Shown one piece after another: positions 16,585-26,197 of a stretch of 64,000 nt of DNA. The notes beneath the pieces were generated by a model. It worked only from the letters and a program-made list of their open reading frames with translations. It had not been told where the DNA came from and searched no databases. The stretch lies in NCBI RefSeq assembly GCF_003671765.1, contig NZ_QPIB01000012.1, positions 325,339 through 389,338 of the forward strand, written 5' to 3'. The stretch is from Xenophilus sp. E41 (GTDB taxonomy: Bacteria; Pseudomonadota; Gammaproteobacteria; Burkholderiales; Burkholderiaceae_C). Position numbers and translations under genes: made by a program. Position 1 is the stretch's first letter, and every line of letters begins with the position of its first letter.

Positions 16585-18732
16585 ATGGGAGCCGACCCAG
16601 CACCCGGGTGCGCGCTCGAAGCGGCCCCATGCCCTGATGGCCCGGCCTCATGCCGAAGGGCTTGCACCGAGGCCTCCGCACCCCCTGTTTTCGACGACCA
16701 GGCGCCCGCCGACCGCTTCTGCGACCTCGTGCTCACCGGCGGGGTGACGAGTTCGATCGCCTATCCCGCGCTGCTGCTGACGCTGGCCAGCCGCTTCCGC
16801 TTCCACAGCATCGGCGGCTCGTCCTCGGGCGCGGGTGCGGCCGCGCTGGCGGCGGCGGCCGAGTACCGGCGTCGTCACGGCTCGGCCGAAGGCTTCCGGG
16901 TGCTGCTCGCCCGCGCGTCGGAGGTGCGCGACTGGGCCGACGAGGCGCGCGGCATCACGCGGCTGCGCCAGCTGTTCCAGCCCTGGGCGCACAGCCGGCG
17001 CCTGTTCGACGCGCTGGTGCCGGTGCTGGCGCAGCCCGACATCGGCCTCGGGGCGATGGCCGGGGCGCTGTGGCGCGCCTATGTCACGACCCGGCGCTGG
17101 GTGGCCCTCGCCCTGGGGTTGGCGGCCGCCGCCGCGGTGCTGGCCGTGGCGTTCGGGACGACCGGCGCGCTGGCGGCGGCCTTCGGCCACGTGGCGCGCT
17201 GGCTGTCGCCTGGCGAAGGCGGCAGCGCGCCCCTGTTGCTCGCCAGCGCGTTCACGGGCGGCCTGGCGGCGGCCGCGGGCCTGCTGGCTGTGGCGCTCGG
17301 CCTGGCGGGTCTGGCGGCGGGCGCCTGGGCGCTGCGCACGGACCTGCAGCGGCTGATCGCGCACGACTTCGGCCTGTGCAGCGGCACCGCCGGCCCCGAT
17401 GCACCGCCCGATGCACCGGCCCCGCTCACCGACTGGCTGCACGGCCTGATCCAGGAGATCGCGGGCCGCAGCGCGGACGCGGCACCGCTGTGCTTCAGCG
17501 ACCTGCGCCAGGCACCGGCCTCGCCACGCGCGCTGGGCCAGGGCGCGCAGGAGATGGACGCGGTGTCGATCCGCCTGCAGGTGTATGCGGCCAACCTCAC
17601 GCGCGGCGAGCCGCTGGTGCTGCCGCTGCGCAAGGGCGACGAGCCGGTCTACTTCGTGCCGCGCGAGATGCGGCGGCTGTTCCCGGGCTCGGTGGTCGAC
17701 GCCATGAAGACGCAGCACTTCGGCCCGCTGCCGCAGGACGCGCGCGCCGCGCTGCCCCGGCCGACGGACCGAGATGCGCCGGCCGGCCAGCAGGCGGACG
17801 ACGACCTGTGGGTGCTCCCGCGCATGGAGCTGCCGATCGTGGTCGCGGCACGCATGAGCGTGAGCGCGCCGCTGCTCTTCGCGCCGGTGCCGGTGTGGAT
17901 GCTCGACCGCGATCACGGCGACACGCCTCGCCGCTGCCTGCTGTCCGACGGTGGCCTGTGCTCCAACTTCCCGATCCACATGTTCGACTGCGCCGTCCCC
18001 TCGTGGCCCACCTTCGGCGTGGCACTGCGCGACGCGCCGCGCGCGCCGGGCGTGCCGCCGCAGGTGCCCGACACGCTGACGCCGGCGCAGATCCGCGACG
18101 CGGTCTCGCTGCCCACGGGGCAGGCGCGTGCGCGCAGCGACTGGAACCGCTTCATCGAGGAGCCCTCGCTGCTGCGGCGGACGATGGGCTTCCTGGGCGC
18201 GCTGCTGGGCACCACCAAGGACTGGAACGACGCGCTGCTCGCGCAGATGCCGGGCGTGCGCGACCGCATCGTGCGCATCGAGCTGCCGCCGGGCATCGGC
18301 GGCCTCAACATCGCGATGACGCCACCGCAGATCCAGGCCTTGTCGGACCTCGGCGAAGAGGCCGGCCGGCGCCTGCTCGCGCGCTTCGCGTCGCCGGGCC
18401 GGCCCGACGGCACGTCCGCCGGCTGGGCCGAGCACCGGTGGACGCGCCTGCAGCTGCTGCGCGACAGCCTGGCCGAGCTGCTGGCCGGCGTCCATGCGGC
18501 GGCCGCCGCCAACCGCTACGCCGGCGCGCTGCGCACGCTGATCGCCGACGCCACCGTGCGCGCGCCGATGGACGAGGCACCGGGCGAGCTGCTCAGCGCC
18601 TCGCAGGCCGCCGCGCTGCAGGGCGCGCTCGACGCGCTGCTGCAGGCCGAGGCCGCCCTGACCGGCCCGGCCGACCCCTTGCCCCTACCCCCGGGGCCGC
18701 GCCCCGTGCTGCGGCTGCGCCCACCCCTCTGA
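16585..18732 (+). CDS. Patatin-like phospholipase with membrane segments
   Basis: 715 residues. Patatin catalytic dyad: S80 in G-G-S-S-S-G and D455 in the S-D-G-G motif; the T-G-G-V near residues 51-54 is the oxyanion-loop counterpart. This family hydrolyses acyl ester bonds of phospholipids or other lipids. Two long hydrophobic stretches (about 172-205 and 217-250) split the catalytic halves, so it is likely membrane-anchored with the active domain on one face. The N-terminal 45 residues are Cys-rich without a clear signal peptide. It ends 19 bp before the DyP-P450 gene, same strand, so the two should be co-transcribed and act on linked steps. Confidence 0.87.
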   Translation: MGADPAPGCALEAAPCPDGPASCRRACTEASAPPVFDDQAPADRFCDLVLTGGVTSSIAYPALLLTLASRFRFHSIGGSSSGAGAAALAAAAEYRRRHGSAEGFRVLLARASEVRDWADEARGITRLRQLFQPWAHSRRLFDALVPVLAQPDIGLGAMAGALWRAYVTTRRWVALALGLAAAAAVLAVAFGTTGALAAAFGHVARWLSPGEGGSAPLLLASAFTGGLAAAAGLLAVALGLAGLAAGAWALRTDLQRLIAHDFGLCSGTAGPDAPPDAPAPLTDWLHGLIQEIAGRSADAAPLCFSDLRQAPASPRALGQGAQEMDAVSIRLQVYAANLTRGEPLVLPLRKGDEPVYFVPREMRRLFPGSVVDAMKTQHFGPLPQDARAALPRPTDRDAPAGQQADDDLWVLPRMELPIVVAARMSVSAPLLFAPVPVWMLDRDHGDTPRRCLLSDGGLCSNFPIHMFDCAVPSWPTFGVALRDAPRAPGVPPQVPDTLTPAQIRDAVSLPTGQARARSDWNRFIEEPSLLRRTMGFLGALLGTTKDWNDALLAQMPGVRDRIVRIELPPGIGGLNIAMTPPQIQALSDLGEEAGRRLLARFASPGRPDGTSAGWAEHRWTRLQLLRDSLAELLAGVHAAAAANRYAGALRTLIADATVRAPMDEAPGELLSASQAAALQGALDALLQAEAALTGPADPLPLPPGPRPVLRLRPPL

Positions 18733-18751: not shown

Positions 18752-21700
18752 ATGCCCACCTTGCCCCCGGCCACCTCGCGCACGCTGCGCGGCATCACCG
18801 ACCTGACGCTGGCCGCGCCGCTGAAACGCGGCCTGGTCGCCGCCCCCGACGCCCGCGGCCACGAGACGCGCCTCGTCACGCTGCTGCGCAGCCTGAACAC
18901 GCTCCGCTATGCCTCGCTGGAGGTCGACCCGGCGCCGGCGATCCCCGACATGATCGACCGCATACGGGCGCTACAGTCCTTCCGCCTCGCACTCGTCGAC
19001 GGGCCCGACGGTAGCCGCCAACTGCTGCTGGCCGTGAGCTTCGACGGCGGCTGGGAACCGTACATGCGCCGCGTGTGGCGCGACCTCGGGCCGCTGCTGG
19101 ACGTGATCTTCTGCAACTGCGAGGGCTACCTGCTGGCGCGCACGCACTCCTATGCCGAGTACGCACGCTGGGTGCGCAGCGCGCAGCGCAACACCGAGTT
19201 CTTCTACACCGCGAGCCCGGTCACCGTGAACGACCTGCACTGGCTGCGCGAGCAGCAGCGCGCCCCGGCACCGCCGCAGTCGCCGGCGAGCCATGTCGCG
19301 CTGGCGGCGCAGGCGCTGCCGGGCCTCACGGCGCTGTACCGCCTCACCGAGCTGTACCCGCCCGGCACGGCCGACGGCGACTGCCTGCTGCATGCCGCGC
19401 ACCACCTGCTGCTTCCGCTGTGGGATCTGATGAGCGCGACGCCGCCCGCCCTCCCGCCCTCGGCCATTCCTTGCCGCACGCCCACCGAGGAGGCCGCCGT
19501 CGCCTGGTTCATGACGAAGGTGCAGGCGCCGCCGGCCACGTCTTCGGGCGCCTGCCCGGCCCATGCGCACTGGCCGCCGGCGGATGCGCAGGCCGGCATC
19601 GTCAAGGCGCTGCCGGCCACGCCGACGCACGGGGCCTTGCTGCTCATCGAGTGCGAGGACGCGAAGGCCGTCGCCCATTTGGTGCGGCAACTCGACCCGG
19701 CCACGCTCGGGGCGCGTGCCGCCCAGGCGCATGCAGGGCCGTGGCGCAACCTGTTCTTCACGCTGTCCGGCCTGAGAAAGGCGGGCGTGCCCGATGGGCT
19801 GCTGGCCTGTCTGCCGGCGGAATTCATCGAGGGCATGGAGGCACGCGCGGCCGTGCTGGGCGACCTGGAAGCCGACCACCCGCAACACTGGGCACTGCCC
19901 GAACGCAACTGGCCACTCGGCAGCACGCAGGCCACACCGGCCCGCGTGGCACTGTCGAGCGTGCATGCCGTGGTGCAGATCCTGGTCGCCGACACCACGG
20001 CGGCGCCAGGGTGGAAACCGCTGGACAGCGCGCATCCGGCCCACGCGCACATCCTCGCCTTCGCGGGCGGGCTGCCACGAGGTGCGCGCATCCTGTCGGT
20101 GGAGCCGCTGCACCGGAACATCGACGCGAACGGCCAGGCGCGCGAGCACTTCGGCTTTGCCGACGGCCTGAGCAACCCCATGGATCCGCGCGACCTGCCG
20201 GCCGGCAACCCGGCGCCCGGCGCCTGGGACGACTGGAAGCTCGGCGACTACCTGCTCGGCTACGGCAACAGCCACGACGACCCGCCGCTGCAGGGCCGCT
20301 TCTGGACCGACAGCACCTTCCTGGTGGTGCGCAAGCTGCGGCAGGACGTGGATGCGTTGCAGGCGATGGTCGGCGGGCCGCCCGCGCACTCCAAGCTCGC
20401 GGCGTTGATGGTCGGCCGGCAGCAGGACGGCAGCAACCTGATCAACGGCACACCGGGCAACGCCTTCGACTATGCGGGGGACCCCGCGGGGGCGCAGTGC
20501 CCGCTGCACTCGCATGTGCGCCGCGCCAATCCGCGCGTGCGCAAGGGCCAGCGCGAGGACCTGCGGGTGCTGCCGCGCATCCTGCGGCGCGGCATGTCCT
20601 ATGGCCCGCCGCACACGCCCCAGACGGCGCGGGAGGAACGTGGCGTGGTCTTCATGGCCTACAACGCTTCCATCGCCGAGCAGTTCGAGCTGATCCAGTC
20701 CTGGCTGTCGGGTGGCAACAGCGGGGGCGACGGCAGCTATTCGGGCCAGCGCGACCCGATCTTCGCCCGGCCGCGCCAGGGCGACCGGGACAGCTTCGTC
20801 TTCGGGCCGCACCCGCAACCGGGCCCGCTGCCACTGCGCGCCGAGGCTGCACGGCCGGTGGCGCTGCAATGGGGGCTGTACCTCTTCGTGCCCTCCGTGC
20901 CGGCGCTGGAGGACATCGCGCGCTTCGCCACCGAGACGGGCTGCCCGGCGGCCGCGTCCGATCCGGCGGCGGCCCAACGCGCCGCCGAGGCCAAGAAGGG
21001 CGCGATGGTCATCGCCAGACTGAAGGCGGCGGAATCGGCGCTCGGCCTGGCCGCTGCGCGCGAGCAGTGGAAGCTGGCGCTGGAAGACCTGGGCGCGCGG
21101 CAGAACGGCACCAGCCAATGGCTCTGGACGGCCGTGCGCGAGCTGCACGGCGGGGTGCTGCGCACGCCCTACGGCGTGCTGGTGGGCAGCCGCGACCGGG
21201 TGATGGAGGTGTTCGGCGACGACCGCAGCTTCTCGGCCACCGGCTACTGCCCGCGCATGGTCTCGTCCTTCGGCGCCATCTACCTCGGAATGGACCAGGG
21301 ACCCGACTACCGCGCGCAGTCGACCGTGCCCAACGAGGCGATCATGGCCGTGACGCGGCAACAGGCCTTCGATGCGGCCTTGGCGGACACCCAGACCGTG
21401 CTCGGCGGCTGGCGATCGGGCGCCGCGGCGGGCTTCTCTTTCGACGTGAAGGACCTGGTCGACGCGGTGCTGGCGCGCGTCTGCACGGCCTTCTTCGGCC
21501 TGCCCGAGGCCGGCGGCACCATGCGCACCGGCGGCTGGCAGGCGCGCAGCGGCCAGGCCAACGCCGACCAGCCGAGCTGCCCTGGGCATTTCGGGGCGCC
21601 GTCGCGCTACATGTTCCAGCCCAACCCGGGCGAGGAAGCCATCCAGCAGGGCCAGGACCACGGCCGGGCGCTGAAGGACTACGTGGAGGCGCGCCTGCAC

Positions 21701-22285
21701 GCGGGCAGCCCCGACCTGCAGTCGAGCAACGCCAGCGTCATCGGCGCGAAGCTGCGCGGCATCCCCAAGGCGCAGTACGCCAGCACGCTCATCGGCATCA
21801 TGATGGGCTTCCTGCCCACGGTGGACGGCACCCTGCGCAGCGCACTCTACGAATGGGTGAACGATCGCTCGCTGTGGGACCTTCAGCTGGCATGGGCGGC
21901 GCACCGCGACCAACCGCCGTCGGCGGCCCTCGATGTGGCCACGGAGGTGATCGAGCCCGTGCTGAGGCGCACGATGCAGCTGCGCCCGGTGCCGGAGCTG
22001 GTCTGGCGCACCGCGACGACGCGGCGGACGCTCGGCGGCGTCGAGGTGGCGCCGGGCGAGCGCATCGTCGTGGGCATCGTCTCGGCCATGCAGCAGAACC
22101 TGCAGGAGGGCAGCCCCGACCTGTGGCCGGTGTTCGGCGGCCGACGGGCCGGCGAGCAGCACCCCACGCATGCCTGCCCCGGCTACGAGATGGCGATGGG
22201 CGTGATGCTCGGCGTCCTGGCCGGCCTGCTGGGCGCCGAGTTGCGGCCGTCGCTGTCGCCGACGGTGCTGCGGCTGATGCCCTGA
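18752..22285 (+). CDS. DyP-type peroxidase fused to cytochrome P450-like domain
   Basis: 1177 residues in three parts. 1-270: unrecognised domain with an alternating strand/helix pattern (V-S-F-D-G-G-W-E-P-Y, then F-C-N-C-E-G-Y), possibly a ferredoxin-like barrel. About 275-730: DyP peroxidase, with G468-F-A-D471-G (the GxxDG catalytic Asp), haem-ligand H588 in H-V-R-R-A-N-P-R, and R-R-G-M-S-Y-G (612-618) that normally bears the distal Arg. About 760-1177: P450-like domain with the haem-thiolate motif A-C1142-P-G-Y-E-M-A; however the I-helix acid is Pro (G-F-L-P1022-T) and the ExxR Glu is Pro (E-P1069-V-L-R). So two haems are expected, the second with altered oxygen-activation residues, which suits a peroxygenase or hydroperoxide-rearranging role. 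Neighbouring patatin suggests a lipid substrate. Function not established. Confidence 0.88.
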   Translation: MPTLPPATSRTLRGITDLTLAAPLKRGLVAAPDARGHETRLVTLLRSLNTLRYASLEVDPAPAIPDMIDRIRALQSFRLALVDGPDGSRQLLLAVSFDGGWEPYMRRVWRDLGPLLDVIFCNCEGYLLARTHSYAEYARWVRSAQRNTEFFYTASPVTVNDLHWLREQQRAPAPPQSPASHVALAAQALPGLTALYRLTELYPPGTADGDCLLHAAHHLLLPLWDLMSATPPALPPSAIPCRTPTEEAAVAWFMTKVQAPPATSSGACPAHAHWPPADAQAGIVKALPATPTHGALLLIECEDAKAVAHLVRQLDPATLGARAAQAHAGPWRNLFFTLSGLRKAGVPDGLLACLPAEFIEGMEARAAVLGDLEADHPQHWALPERNWPLGSTQATPARVALSSVHAVVQILVADTTAAPGWKPLDSAHPAHAHILAFAGGLPRGARILSVEPLHRNIDANGQAREHFGFADGLSNPMDPRDLPAGNPAPGAWDDWKLGDYLLGYGNSHDDPPLQGRFWTDSTFLVVRKLRQDVDALQAMVGGPPAHSKLAALMVGRQQDGSNLINGTPGNAFDYAGDPAGAQCPLHSHVRRANPRVRKGQREDLRVLPRILRRGMSYGPPHTPQTAREERGVVFMAYNASIAEQFELIQSWLSGGNSGGDGSYSGQRDPIFARPRQGDRDSFVFGPHPQPGPLPLRAEAARPVALQWGLYLFVPSVPALEDIARFATETGCPAAASDPAAAQRAAEAKKGAMVIARLKAAESALGLAAAREQWKLALEDLGARQNGTSQWLWTAVRELHGGVLRTPYGVLVGSRDRVMEVFGDDRSFSATGYCPRMVSSFGAIYLGMDQGPDYRAQSTVPNEAIMAVTRQQAFDAALADTQTVLGGWRSGAAAGFSFDVKDLVDAVLARVCTAFFGLPEAGGTMRTGGWQARSGQANADQPSCPGHFGAPSRYMFQPNPGEEAIQQGQDHGRALKDYVEARLHAGSPDLQSSNASVIGAKLRGIPKAQYASTLIGIMMGFLPTVDGTLRSALYEWVNDRSLWDLQLAWAAHRDQPPSAALDVATEVIEPVLRRTMQLRPVPELVWRTATTRRTLGGVEVAPGERIVVGIVSAMQQNLQEGSPDLWPVFGGRRAGEQHPTHACPGYEMAMGVMLGVLAGLLGAELRPSLSPTVLRLMP

Positions 22286-22385: not shown

Positions 22386-22401
22386 AAGGTGGATCGCTGT
22401 G

Positions 22402-25400
22402 TCAGGCGCTGGCACGCAGCGCAGCCGCCTGTGCGAGGTGCCAGTCCATGCGCAGGCGCTCGAAGCCTTCCGTCGCGGCGTCGAGGTGGCGCTGCGCTTC
22501 CCCGCAGTCGTCACGACGCAGCGCCAGGCGTGCGCGCAGCAGGTGGTTGGACGCCATCTCGTGCGGGGACTGCCGCAGCGCCGCTGCGTGGTCGGCCAGT
22601 CGCAGGTGGCGCGCCAGCGCGTCGGCGTTTCCGGCCTCCGCGGCCAGCCCGGCCAGCGCGCGCCCGGCCATCGCGGCGCCCAGCCAGTCGCGCTGGCGGG
22701 CCCGGCGCAGCACGCGGGCCGCGGCGGCCCGCGCCTCGGCCGTGCGACCGCCCGCGGCCATCGCCTCGCACACCCAGCCGTGGTTGAGCGAGGCAAAGAG
22801 GCCCTTGTCGTGCGAATCGAGCCAGGTCGCCGATTCCTGCAGCGCCTCGAGCGCGGCAGGCTGCGGGTCGAGCATCCAGCGTGCATAGGCGGCCAGGCCG
22901 TGGCTCATGGCAAACAGGTACAGGCTCTTGACCTGCTCCCCCACCCGGTGCGCAGCCTGCGCGTCGTCCAGCGCGGCCTGCCAGCGGCCCTGCCAGAGGT
23001 TGACGCCCGCACGCCAGCACAGCACCGAGCCTTCGACCTCGTGCCCGCGGCCGGGCAGCGCCGCCAGCGCCTCGTCGAAGCTGGCGTGGGCGTCGTCGAA
23101 GCGCCCCAGGTCGCCCAGCACGCTCGCGCGGCAGGCCATGGCATAGGCGATGGCCGGCAGCGGCGCGCGGCTGCCCGGACGGCGCTGGCGCACGGCATGC
23201 GCCATCTCGTCCAGCAATTCGACGGCACGGCCGTAGTCGGCGGCCGAGGCCGCCGCCTGGCCGAGCGTGGTGCGGGCCTGGACGATGAGCGACGTGTCCC
23301 GCAGGCGGGTGGCGTGGTCGAGTGCCTCCTCGCAATGCAGCAGGGCGTCCTTGGATTCGCCCAGGGCGTAGTGCAGGTAGGCGAGCCAGTACTGCGCGTA
23401 GGCCTGGCCCGTCGCGTCGCCGTGCGCGCGCGCCTTGTCCACCGCGCGGCGCAGCAGGGCCTTCTCGTCGCGCGAGGGGTCGAACACGGTCGCCAGGCCG
23501 AGCCGCCGCACCACCGAGCGCCAGAGCTGGTAGCGCTCGGGCGTCGAGGGCAGGCGGTCGAGCATCTCCAGCGCGGCGCGGTACTGCGTCTTCGCGCGGT
23601 CGATGGACGACGCCGACATCGCCTTGTCGCCGGCCATCTCGGCGTAGCGCGCGGCGGCCGAGAAGTCGGCCGCGCCTGCGTGGTGGTAGGCCAGCGGCTC
23701 GCATTGCTCGAGCTCGGTCGCGCCATCGCGCGCGCGCAGCAGCTGCGCCACGCGCGCGTGCATGTCGCGGCGCTGCTGCAGCCCGAGGGTGCTGTAGACC
23801 ACGTCGCGCGTGATGCCGTGCTTGAAGCGCAGGGTGCCGGGCTGCTCGCCAGCGAACAGCAGGTCCTGCGCCGCCATGGCGGTCACCAGCGGATGCTGGG
23901 CATCGCAGCCGGTGAGCTCCTGCAGCAGCCAGGCCGGGACCACGTTGCCGATGACGGCCGCCGCCCCGAGCACCGCTCCCTGCTGCGGCGCCAGCCGCGC
24001 CACGCGCGATTCGATCAGCGACTCCAGCCAGGCCGGCCCGCCGCGCAGCGCGTCGAGGCCGGCACCGGTGTCGGCCGCCAGGTGGCACAGCTCCTCGAGG
24101 AAGAGCGCGTTGCCGCCGGAATGCTCGCGGATGCTGCTCACCACGAAAGGGTCGGCGTCGGGCAGCAGGGTGCGGATGGTCGTGTCGGCCTCGGCGCGCG
24201 ACAGCGGCCCGAGCGCCAGGACGTCGGCCGCCGCCAGCTGGGCGTCGCCCAGCTCCAGCGGGCGCGTGGCCAGCAGTACCAGCAGCGGCAGCTCGGGCTG
24301 GGCGGCCAGCGCGTAGACGATCTGGCGCGTCGCATCGTCGGCCCACTGCCAGTCGTCGATGAACAGCAGTTGCGGCGCCTGCCCTGCCAGCACACCGACC
24401 AGCCGGCCCAGCACCTGCAGCAGCTGCTGCGCCTGCGCGGCCGCCGCCGCCGGCGTGTCGGCCGGCTCGGCAGGCAGCGCCAGTTCGGGATGGCGCTCGC
24501 GCAGTTCGGCCGGCAGCGCGGCGATCGCGCCGCCCAGCAGCGCCGGCGCGGCCAGGCCGGCGGCGGCCGTGCCCAAGCGGGCGCGCAGCATCTGCAGGAA
24601 GGGCTGGAGGGGCTCGGCGCTGAGTTCGGCCTCGCAGTAGCCGCGCCACAGCGCGAAGCCGCTGGCCGAGGCCTGGCGCAGGAATTCCTCCGCCAGGCGC
24701 GTCTTGCCGACCCCCGCCGGGGCCGAGACCACCATCAGCCGGGTGCGCCCCGCGCGCGCGGCCGCGAGCGCGCCCTGCAGGGCGGCGAGTTCGGCCTCGC
24801 GCCCGACGAAGTCGACCAGGCCGCGGCGGGTCTGGGCCTCGAAGCGCGTGCGCAACGCCGTGCGCGCGAGGATGCGGTGCACCGCCAGCGGGTCGTCGCG
24901 GCCCTTGAGCGCGAGCCGGCGGGCCTCGGTCTGGAACAGGTAGCGGGCCGGGCCCAGCGTCTCCTCGCTGACCAGGATCTCGTCGCGCTCGGCGACGTCG
25001 CTCAGATGCTTGGCGATGCCGGGGGCGGCGCCGAAGAGCTCGAAGCGCCCGGCGATGCCGAGGGTGCCCTCGCGCACCAGCACCAGGCCCGCGTGGATGC
25101 CGCTGTGCACGTCCAGCATGATGTCGTCGCGGTAGGCATGGCGGGCGCGCAGCGCGCGCACGCGCTCGTGCACCTCCAGCGCCGCCCGGGTCGCGCGCAG
25201 GCCGTCGTCCTCGCCGGCCTCGGGATGGCCGAACAGGGCCTGGAGCCCGTCGCCCTGGTACTGGTTGATGGTGCCGCCGCTGCGCTGGACCACCTCCTCG
25301 AACACGCGACGCACGTCGTCCTGCAGGGCCGCGAACACCTCCGCCTCCAGCAGGCCCGACAAGCGCGTGGAATCGGACAGGTCGGTGAACAGCACCGTCA

Positions 25401-25458
25401 TGTGCCGGCGCAACTCGCCCGACACGCCCTGCACCATGCCCTCAACATCTCTTGCCAT
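22402..25458 (-). CDS. Class III adenylate/guanylate cyclase - AAA ATPase - TPR protein
   Basis: 1018 residues. Residues about 15-195: class III cyclase homology domain with metal-binding Asp in F-T-D26-L-S and Y-Q-G-D70-G. About 225-560: AAA/STAND-type ATPase, Walker A A-P-A-G-V-G-K-T near 243-252 and Walker B L-L-F-I-D-D-W-Q-W near 364-371. The rest is helical, TPR-like. This architecture is common for large bacterial cyclase-like regulators; whether it makes cAMP or cGMP cannot be read from here. Start ATG 25458 is backed by GGTGGGAGA upstream; the longer open frame is shadow. It lies 82 bp behind a CRP/FNR gene on the same strand, a suggestive pairing. Confidence 0.88.
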   Translation of the reverse strand: MARDVEGMVQGVSGELRRHMTVLFTDLSDSTRLSGLLEAEVFAALQDDVRRVFEEVVQRSGGTINQYQGDGLQALFGHPEAGEDDGLRATRAALEVHERVRALRARHAYRDDIMLDVHSGIHAGLVLVREGTLGIAGRFELFGAAPGIAKHLSDVAERDEILVSEETLGPARYLFQTEARRLALKGRDDPLAVHRILARTALRTRFEAQTRRGLVDFVGREAELAALQGALAAARAGRTRLMVVSAPAGVGKTRLAEEFLRQASASGFALWRGYCEAELSAEPLQPFLQMLRARLGTAAAGLAAPALLGGAIAALPAELRERHPELALPAEPADTPAAAAAQAQQLLQVLGRLVGVLAGQAPQLLFIDDWQWADDATRQIVYALAAQPELPLLVLLATRPLELGDAQLAAADVLALGPLSRAEADTTIRTLLPDADPFVVSSIREHSGGNALFLEELCHLAADTGAGLDALRGGPAWLESLIESRVARLAPQQGAVLGAAAVIGNVVPAWLLQELTGCDAQHPLVTAMAAQDLLFAGEQPGTLRFKHGITRDVVYSTLGLQQRRDMHARVAQLLRARDGATELEQCEPLAYHHAGAADFSAAARYAEMAGDKAMSASSIDRAKTQYRAALEMLDRLPSTPERYQLWRSVVRRLGLATVFDPSRDEKALLRRAVDKARAHGDATGQAYAQYWLAYLHYALGESKDALLHCEEALDHATRLRDTSLIVQARTTLGQAAASAADYGRAVELLDEMAHAVRQRRPGSRAPLPAIAYAMACRASVLGDLGRFDDAHASFDEALAALPGRGHEVEGSVLCWRAGVNLWQGRWQAALDDAQAAHRVGEQVKSLYLFAMSHGLAAYARWMLDPQPAALEALQESATWLDSHDKGLFASLNHGWVCEAMAAGGRTAEARAAAARVLRRARQRDWLGAAMAGRALAGLAAEAGNADALARHLRLADHAAALRQSPHEMASNHLLRARLALRRDDCGEAQRHLDAATEGFERLRMDWHLAQAAALRASA

Positions 25459-25540
25459 GGATCTCCCACCGTTTAGGGAGAACATTGTGTCCTGCGCCGC
25501 GAACGCTCCGCAACGCGCGATCGAAAGCCCGAGTGCGGCC

Positions 25541-26197
25541 TCACCAGCGGGCGGGCAGCGGGCGCAGGATGGCCAGGCGGCGGTCGCGCACGGCGAGGTA
25601 GCCGCCGGTCTCGAGGTCCTTGAGCAGGCGGCTGACCATCTCGCGCGAGCAGCCGATCTCCGAGGCCAGCGCCTGGTGCGTGAGCCGCTCGGCGATGGAC
25701 TGGGCACCGTCCGGGCCGGCCGGCGACGCCCGCTCCTCCAGCACGCGGCGCAGGCGGCTGTAGACGTCGAGCAGGGCCATGCTGCGGGCGCTCTCGGTCG
25801 CCAGGCGCGCGCGGCGGATCAGGCGCTCGATCAGGCCGCGGGTGAATTCCGGGTCTTCGGCGATGTGGCGCAGCGCGCTCTCGCGCGTGACCACCACGCA
25901 CACGGTGGGCTCGACGGCCTCCACGCTGGCCGAGCGGGCGCCGCGGTCCAGCGACATCTCGCCCACGTACTCGCCCGGGCCGTGGTGGCTGAGCGTCACC
26001 TCCCGACCCCGGGAATCGGACACGAAGGCGCGCAGCCGGCCCGACAGAACGATGTAGATCGTGTCGCCGCGCTCGCCTTCCTGGATGAGCAGGGCGCGCG
26101 CCCGAAAGCGCCGCTGCACGCCGCGCGCCGCCAGCCGCGCGACGTCGGCCGGCAGCGAATCGGTGGAGTCGGCAGGAGCAGCGGACCGCGGCGGCAT
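25541..26197 (-). CDS. CRP/FNR family transcriptional regulator
   Basis: 218 residues: cyclic-nucleotide-binding jelly roll (I-Q-E-G-E-R-G-D-T-I-Y-I-V-L-S-G, then G-E-M-S-L with R-S-A-S-V five residues on) and a C-terminal winged helix (H-Q-A-L-A-S-E-I-G-C-S-R-E-M-V-S-R-L-L). The Glu and Arg-Ser of the phosphate-binding cassette match those that contact cAMP in E. coli CRP, so nucleotide binding is plausible. No N-terminal FNR-type cysteines. Neighbour of the cyclase-like gene, forming a possible make-and-sense pair. Confidence 0.9.
   Translation of the reverse strand: MPPRSAAPADSTDSLPADVARLAARGVQRRFRARALLIQEGERGDTIYIVLSGRLRAFVSDSRGREVTLSHHGPGEYVGEMSLDRGARSASVEAVEPTVCVVVTRESALRHIAEDPEFTRGLIERLIRRARLATESARSMALLDVYSRLRRVLEERASPAGPDGAQSIAERLTHQALASEIGCSREMVSRLLKDLETGGYLAVRDRRLAILRPLPARW

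Follow-up and report, generated by a model that had tools for sequence, protein, structure and literature searches.

A DyP peroxidase fused to a P450-fold domain in Xenophilus sp. E41 and its relatives

Proteins that join a haem peroxidase or dioxygenase to a cytochrome P450 in one chain are described from fungi, as the dioxygenase-P450 (DOX-CYP) fusions (linoleate diol, allene oxide and epoxy alcohol synthases; CYP6001-6005), and from oomycetes, as CYP5619 (excerpts of PMC13049297, PMC5919972, PMC4420034 and PMC5041501). In such excerpts the first domain of the fungal proteins is cyclooxygenase-like (peroxidase-cyclooxygenase superfamily), and their P450 part isomerises hydroperoxides without needing a redox partner (PMC13049297). 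DyP peroxidases form another superfamily; a DyP of subfamily B fused to a pyruvate formate-lyase-type domain (DyP-PFL) is known from fungi and bacteria (excerpt of PMC5041501). Here we describe a DyP fused to another partner. A stretch of 64,000 nucleotides of Xenophilus sp. E41 (contig NZ_QPIB01000012.1; "the window") encodes, at positions 18752-22285, a 1177-residue protein in which an N-terminal domain (N-domain) and a DyP peroxidase domain are followed by a domain of predicted P450 fold. In addition to its different peroxidase superfamily, this protein differs from the fungal fusions in its N-domain, in a nucleotide cyclase gene as neighbour and in the loss of the P450 motif ExxR. The closest solved DyP by both sequence and fold, that of Deinococcus radiodurans (8re2/8re3), has the same fold, GxxDG motif, proximal histidine and distal arginine, but is a chain of about 440 residues with no P450.

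An earlier note on this DNA, which knew of no characterised DyP-P450 fusion, had put the protein forward as an undescribed system. A search of the open-access literature by titles and beginnings of abstracts, with subscription papers outside its scope, gave no DyP-P450 protein among the matches listed. The architecture is real and conserved, and within the reach of this search it is undescribed; it is not unique to this genome.

The fusion gene and its conservation

The open reading frame (ORF) runs on the forward strand with no internal stop, which rules out a frameshift or truncation of the gene; GAGG stands just 5' of its ATG (by eye). One scan of genome contigs yielded 67 loci encoding a relative, a lower bound given that the pattern search picks up close relatives, and 62 of these encode more than 1100 residues. 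An assembly join of two genes is ruled out by these 62 long relatives. A chance ORF in GC-rich DNA was also considered: a long antisense ORF exists (18971-22171), but it is matched at 11 loci, against 67/67 for the forward frame. The number of loci, the forward frame matched throughout and the near-invariance of the motif residues show that the fusion of DyP and P450 is real and not a chance join.

The relatives are mostly from Burkholderiales (Roseateles, Pelomonas, Variovorax, Pseudorhodoferax, Xenophilus and others), besides two Bradyrhizobium and a number of unplaced bins. Five short relatives (L005, L050, L057, L060, L063; L numbers denote loci, G numbers genomes) were left out of the motif comparison, and three of the long ones (L004, L015, L048) end at a contig end. 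The 62 long relatives, the window, a fused copy on a Sphingopyxis plasmid and a fused copy of 1587 amino acids in genome G111 make up the 65 rows in which motifs were followed. The Sphingopyxis copy has 809 amino acids, lacks the N-domain and adjoins a Tn3-family transposase gene; it follows this gene directly (L070, 5959-11409) and was possibly cut by the insertion.

Within the genus of the window, a relative was matched over at least 800 residues in 4 of 13 other genomes, in G664 only to residue 823. A profile of the N-domain gave three matches in a 398-genome sample of the phylum (the window's own, that of G111 and a weak one with an in-frame stop), and a P450 profile, run on 274 genomes of the class, picked up nothing beyond the window's own gene and one weak match. 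A phage origin was considered as well; the phage collection contained no match. The fusion architecture is thus conserved and not confined to Xenophilus sp. E41. Members already stand in public records, with names such as "cytochrome P450" or "Dyp-type peroxidase domain-containing protein".

The DyP and P450 domains

By fold, model and motif residues, the middle domain is assigned to the DyP peroxidase superfamily. The fusion protein matches the Pfam model Dyp_perox_C (E-value = 5.6e-8; 33.2 bits, above the cut-off of 20) and the NCBIfam model Dyp_perox_fam (E-value = 5.1e-24, but 85.2 bits, below the cut-off of 100.5), and phmmer against the PDB finds the D. radiodurans DyP 8re3 at 1.6e-25. 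The motif set G468-F-A-D471-G and H588, like C1142 further on, stands where the earlier note had placed it. No cyclooxygenase-type haem dioxygenase domain was found in the fusion: Pfam yields Dyp_perox_C only, and the fold is that of a DyP.

The C-terminal domain is harder to recognise. The fusion sequence by itself matched no P450 model in Pfam or NCBIfam at an E-value of 1, and its P450 matches in the PDB were weak (phmmer, best E-value = 0.68), so that the motif around C1142 alone, which the earlier note had read as haem-thiolate, is weak evidence. With a family profile, 23 of the 24 PDB matches up to an E-value of 10 were P450s, only the first of them below 0.1 (E-value = 0.0046). A profile-profile alignment (hhalign) with five unlinked bacterial P450s gave 97.1% (E-value = 6e-11, 332 columns), and one with a two-sequence CYP102-like set gave nothing (0.2%). 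An AlphaFold2 model of the domain alone had a predicted local distance difference test score (pLDDT) of 93.5 and a predicted template modelling score (pTM) of 0.93; the 50 Foldseek matches listed of 1641 (E-value ≤ 0.001) were all P450s, with TM-scores of 0.51-0.69 at 12-19% identity. A P450 fold after residue 760, which the earlier note had set beforehand as a check, is therefore what the model predicts, and C1142 lines up with the ligand cysteine of the unlinked P450s. The model of the full-length protein (pLDDT 79.6, pTM 0.66) had Foldseek matches to both DyPs and P450s, the first 12 being DyPs.

ExxR is usual in P450s, though not universal; the P450 of the fusion is atypical in this motif, in helix I and in the haem loop. 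The E..R of helix K (1073/1076) is nearly gone, being kept in one of the 65 rows (L034). At the acid position of helix I a proline stands in 64/65 rows and an alanine in the other; the adjoining threonine or serine is kept in 64/65. In the haem loop, FG and HxC are separated by an insertion whose length varies. The WR pair is kept in 64/65 rows, and C1142 and H1140 in all 64 rows that reach them (L015 ends earlier). Since D471, H588 and R612 of the DyP are kept in 65/65 rows and this cysteine and histidine in 64/64, their conservation argues for two working haem sites, as far as sequence can tell. Among P450s with unusual motifs, the peroxygenases of CYP152 and the hydroperoxide isomerases of CYP74 are without the common acid-alcohol pair, and CYP157, a P450 with no ExxR, shows that this motif can be missing. 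The likeness of the window's P450 to these three families is one of motif description; its listed Foldseek matches are generic P450s.

The N-domain, like the neighbouring genes, was absent from the earlier note. It has no Pfam match, and its profile found nothing meaningful in the PDB (best E-value = 0.42).

Other arrangements and neighbouring genes

Searches of the family of G111 and of a plasmid collection brought up the same parts in other arrangements (Table 1). The family of G111 gave matches in 20 of 119 genomes, the DyP part accounting for almost all of them; regions were taken from 13 of these 20, picked for long frames or strong matches, so that the counts below are not frequencies. 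A reversed fusion, P450-N-DyP, is encoded at L132 (G722), L133 (G777) and L128 (G700), and in Pararhizobium qamdonense, Novosphingobium aromaticivorans (pNL2) and Sulfitobacter; in Novosphingobium, L132, L133 and L128 its N-type part was recognised by eye or by a weak profile score. The N-type domains of the reversed fusions, lying between P450 and DyP, carry membrane-like segments (by eye); those reversed fusions that have an annotation are called only "cytochrome P450" or "Dyp-type peroxidase domain-containing protein". L129 encodes a DyP-P450 fusion with the N-type ORF separate. L077 encodes the N-DyP-P450 order with an added GDSL-like lipase domain, in which the GDS, GGND and H motifs were seen by eye. 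P450, DyP and cyclase are separate neighbouring genes at L134, L137, L139 and L140, and at the first three of these a gene of about 700 codons without a Pfam match lies between the P450 and DyP genes; residues ~503-690 of the L137 product match the middle part of the reversed fusions in plasmids. In Skermanella the N-type, DyP and P450 genes are consecutive. An N-type gene beside a DyP gene, with no P450 found, occurs in Deinococcus, L078, L130 and L136.

In a phylogenetic tree of the P450s (32 rows), the window-type sequences make up a single clade (100/100). With the unlinked P450s as root, the tree groups them with the reversed-fusion P450s at only 83/82, by which a common origin is suggested and no more. 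In the DyP tree (33 rows) the window-type DyPs likewise form one clade (99/97), which excludes the DyPs of the reversed and split forms and of L129. DyP and P450 are therefore physically linked in either order and in DyP lineages that are distinct, whether through repeated fusion or through rearrangement, which is the strongest argument that the two work together.

A joint alignment places the motif changes among these forms. The acid of the acid-alcohol pair is missing from 24 of 25 representatives of DyP-linked P450s, which are not independent, 13 of them forming the window's own clade; in the unlinked control P450s an aspartate or glutamate is kept in 7/7 (two near-identical). GFxPT in helix I is common to six reversed-fusion P450s and most window-type P450s. 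ExxR and a canonical haem loop are present in 11/11 of the P450s compared from reversed and split arrangements.

Downstream of the fusion gene, and convergent to it, lies a gene for a class III nucleotide cyclase with AAA_16 and TPR parts. An overlapping gene on the forward strand (22399-25476) was rejected in its favour, having no Pfam match, whereas the reverse-strand ORF has cyclase, AAA and TPR matches. A cyclase-AAA-TPR homologue is found downstream in 52 of the 57 loci that have 2.5 kb or more of DNA on that side. With two loci of shorter DNA added, the distance is at most 200 nt in 42/54 and 0.5-7 kb in 12, and the gene is convergent everywhere except in the two Bradyrhizobium, where it is co-directional. 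Homologues also lie close to the DyP genes of five loci with a different architecture (L134, L137, L138, L139, L140). Cyclases carry residues of known roles in DL, GDG and PNIAARL-type motifs; DL and GDG are kept in the 51 aligned rows, and the third motif reads PGIAKHL or PGVAKHL in five of them (the window, L003, L004, L006, L009). The window's cyclase gene is conserved although its product is possibly no longer an active cyclase.

A gene for a Crp/Fnr-type regulator follows on the strand of the cyclase gene. Homologues of it occur at five related loci, and Crp/Fnr genes are annotated near the Sphingopyxis and Pararhizobium relatives too. The genes that precede two reversed fusions (L143, 3038-4726; L144, 3006-4637) look alike and TPR-like by eye, one being annotated as a SARP family regulator and one as hypothetical; they occupy the place of the Pararhizobium cyclase gene (L142, 2965-4728).

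Upstream of the fusion gene the window has a gene for a patatin-like lipase, scoring 27.4 bits with Pfam Patatin, just below the cut-off of 27.7; the L006 homologue scores above it. Such a gene precedes the fusion in 8 of the 58 relatives' loci with upstream DNA, among them all six of the nearest relatives for which that DNA is available (L003, L005-L009). GxSxG and DGG are present in the nine copies looked at, the window's included, and the Patatin hidden Markov model, run across the reading frames at every first-scan locus, found these eight upstream copies and the window's (L001) and no other. A role as a defence system of the CBASS/Pycsar kind was considered: of the four proteins tested with PADLOC at 0.01, the fusion and the patatin-like protein had no match, and at the locus only the cyclase part of 22402-25707 matched (PycC models, best 5e-12).

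Table 1. Coordinates of the fusion gene, its domains, its neighbours and related arrangements
Feature	Locus	Coordinates	Strand	Remarks
Patatin-like lipase gene	window	16585..18732	+	715 amino acids; ends 19 nt before fusion ATG
N-domain/DyP/P450 fusion gene	window	18752..22285	+	ATG start; 1177 amino acids; internal stops 0
N-domain, ~residues 1-270	window	18752..19561	+	separate-gene relatives beside stand-alone DyP genes
DyP peroxidase domain, ~residues 278-722	window	19583..20917	+	Pfam, NCBIfam, PDB comparison, fold
GFADG (GxxDG) distal motif, residues 468-472	window	20153..20167	+	D471 in 65/65 rows
H588	window	20513..20515	+	proximal haem ligand by alignment; 65/65 rows
R612	window	20585..20587	+	distal Arg by alignment; 65/65 rows
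P450-fold domain, ~residues 766-1177	window	21047..22282	+	family profile, profile-profile alignment, structure model
I-helix GFLPT, residues 1019-1023	window	21806..21820	+	Pro at acid site of canonical acid-alcohol pair
C1142	window	22175..22177	+	haem-thiolate ligand by alignment; 64/64 rows with sequence there
Class III nucleotide cyclase-AAA_16-TPR gene	window	22402..25707	-	convergent to fusion; cyclase, AAA, TPR matches
Crp/Fnr-type regulator gene	window	25541..26197	-	same strand as cyclase
Reversed fusion	L132	11584-16032	-	
Reversed fusion	L133	5405-9892	+	
Reversed fusion	L128	1334-6415	-	
Reversed fusion	L142	4811-9082		
Reversed fusion	L143	4787-9118		
Reversed fusion	L144	4694-9556		
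N-DyP-P450 with C-terminal GDSL-like lipase domain	L077	392-5155		1587 amino acids
~700-amino-acid protein between P450 and DyP genes	L137	4997-7102		one family with the next two
~700-amino-acid protein between P450 and DyP genes	L139	9250-11373		
~700-amino-acid protein between P450 and DyP genes	L134	12606-14684		
Deinococcus radiodurans row	L147	5806-9039		hypothetical N-type protein, Dyp-type peroxidase, catalase-family protein

A possible two-haem enzyme and its rivals

The fusion is most likely an enzyme with two haems, driven by peroxide, that acts on lipids or lipid hydroperoxides and is tied to signalling. That it works like the fungal dioxygenase-P450 synthases, built from an unrelated peroxidase, we hold tentatively, at a little short of an even chance; as a mechanism this is plausible but unproven. 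Two catalytic-looking haem sites, one without the acid for O2 activation, would fit peroxide chemistry passed between the sites; lipid peroxides are suggested by the lipase links, by the Deinococcus catalase-family gene and by what is known of the fungal proteins; and the cyclase, as the steady neighbour, suggests a use in signalling. The patatin-like lipase, where present, would release fatty acids or lipid peroxides from membranes. The DyP haem would then oxidise the lipid with peroxide to a lipid hydroperoxide or, alternatively, set the peroxide that drives the P450 step. The P450 haem, without the O2-activating acid, might rearrange or use the peroxide with no redox partners, and the product or the redox state could be read by the cyclase-AAA-TPR protein and the Crp/Fnr regulator. 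Bacteria do have fatty-acid oxygenases of peroxidase descent, as oleate oxylipins of Pseudomonas aeruginosa are made with di-haem cytochrome c peroxidase relatives (excerpt of PMC4496055).

Several observations weigh against this two-haem lipid enzyme. The oxidation of a lipid by the DyP is a guess, since DyPs are not known to act as fatty-acid dioxygenases, and 50 of the 58 loci with enough upstream DNA yielded no patatin gene. The analogy with fungal oxylipin synthases, which the earlier note had drawn, is for these reasons unproven, while the missing I-helix acid, the lipase genes of some members and the Deinococcus row lend it circumstantial support. The GDSL-like domain of L077 stays below its Pfam cut-off (E-value = 7.4e-6; 27.0 bits against 32.9). 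Loss of ExxR leaves a weak or dead P450 possible, and L129 retains the I-helix acid as a glutamate. At five loci (L020, L027, L058, L062, L065) downstream DNA is available but holds no clustered cyclase homologue, nor do L132 and L133 have a cyclase in the DNA fetched; the cyclase of the window and of four relatives is possibly altered, the asparagine and arginine of the PNIAARL-type motif being lost, and the window's may not make a cyclic nucleotide. Some DyP genes stand apart: in the DNA fetched, those of L135 (own genome) and L141 have no partner, and that of L138 has a cyclase only and no P450. A search of the own genome for lipoxygenase and animal-type peroxidase (An_peroxidase) gave no match but carries no weight here, as its controls were silent too.

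Two real rivals remain. It is fairly unlikely, yet to be reckoned with, that the fusion is a peroxide-driven peroxygenase/peroxidase pair whose substrates are small aromatics or other compounds that are not lipids, in detoxification or secondary metabolism: the DyP would set local peroxide and radical levels, the P450 would hydroxylate with H2O2, and the lipid genes would be incidental. The missing acid makes peroxide use likely here too, most loci do without a patatin gene, and the Skermanella isolate with three separate genes came from hydrocarbon-contaminated sand; but lipase-type genes are attached in two ways, as the patatin-like gene and, weakly, as the fused GDSL-like domain, and a degradation enzyme has no obvious need of a steady cyclase neighbour. 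That neighbour, co-directional in Bradyrhizobium, speaks instead for a haem-based sensor, one or both haems detecting peroxide, lipid peroxide or gas, through which the cyclase-AAA-TPR protein and the Crp/Fnr regulator would be controlled, with a P450 no longer an enzyme; the loss of ExxR in 64/65 rows agrees with this, and so does the occurrence of Crp/Fnr genes in the window and near the Sphingopyxis and Pararhizobium relatives. We consider such a sensor unlikely, the catalytic residues of the DyP being kept throughout; the ExxR and canonical haem loop of the reversed and split P450s suggest enzymes, and the fused GDSL-like domain of L077 also fits an enzyme better. An ordinary DyP with a degenerate, scaffolding P450, functioning in peroxide scavenging, would account for the lost ExxR and for a single sequence that matches no P450 model. 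It appears improbable: the near-complete retention of the haem-loop cysteine and histidine and of the WR pair is hard to explain in a dead domain, and the P450 link recurs across several architectures.

A bolder form of the two-haem lipid enzyme, which we regard as possible but doubtful, would be a bacterial parallel to the logic of cyclooxygenase and prostaglandin synthase that arose from unrelated parts, in which lipase, DyP and O2-independent P450, on one chain or a few, make an oxidised-lipid signal controlling the cyclase-AAA-TPR protein and the Crp/Fnr regulator. If true, it would extend to a whole undescribed class of signalling-lipid synthases, as DyP and P450 co-occur in several arrangements. 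A bacterial fusion built with another peroxidase superfamily, occurring in both domain orders and also as neighbouring genes, would amount to convergence on handing peroxides from one haem to another. The constancy of the cyclase gene beside it raises the question of whether lipid or peroxide chemistry is coupled to nucleotide signalling in these bacteria, and the DyP-linked P450s, which may run on peroxide, may be of use in biocatalysis.

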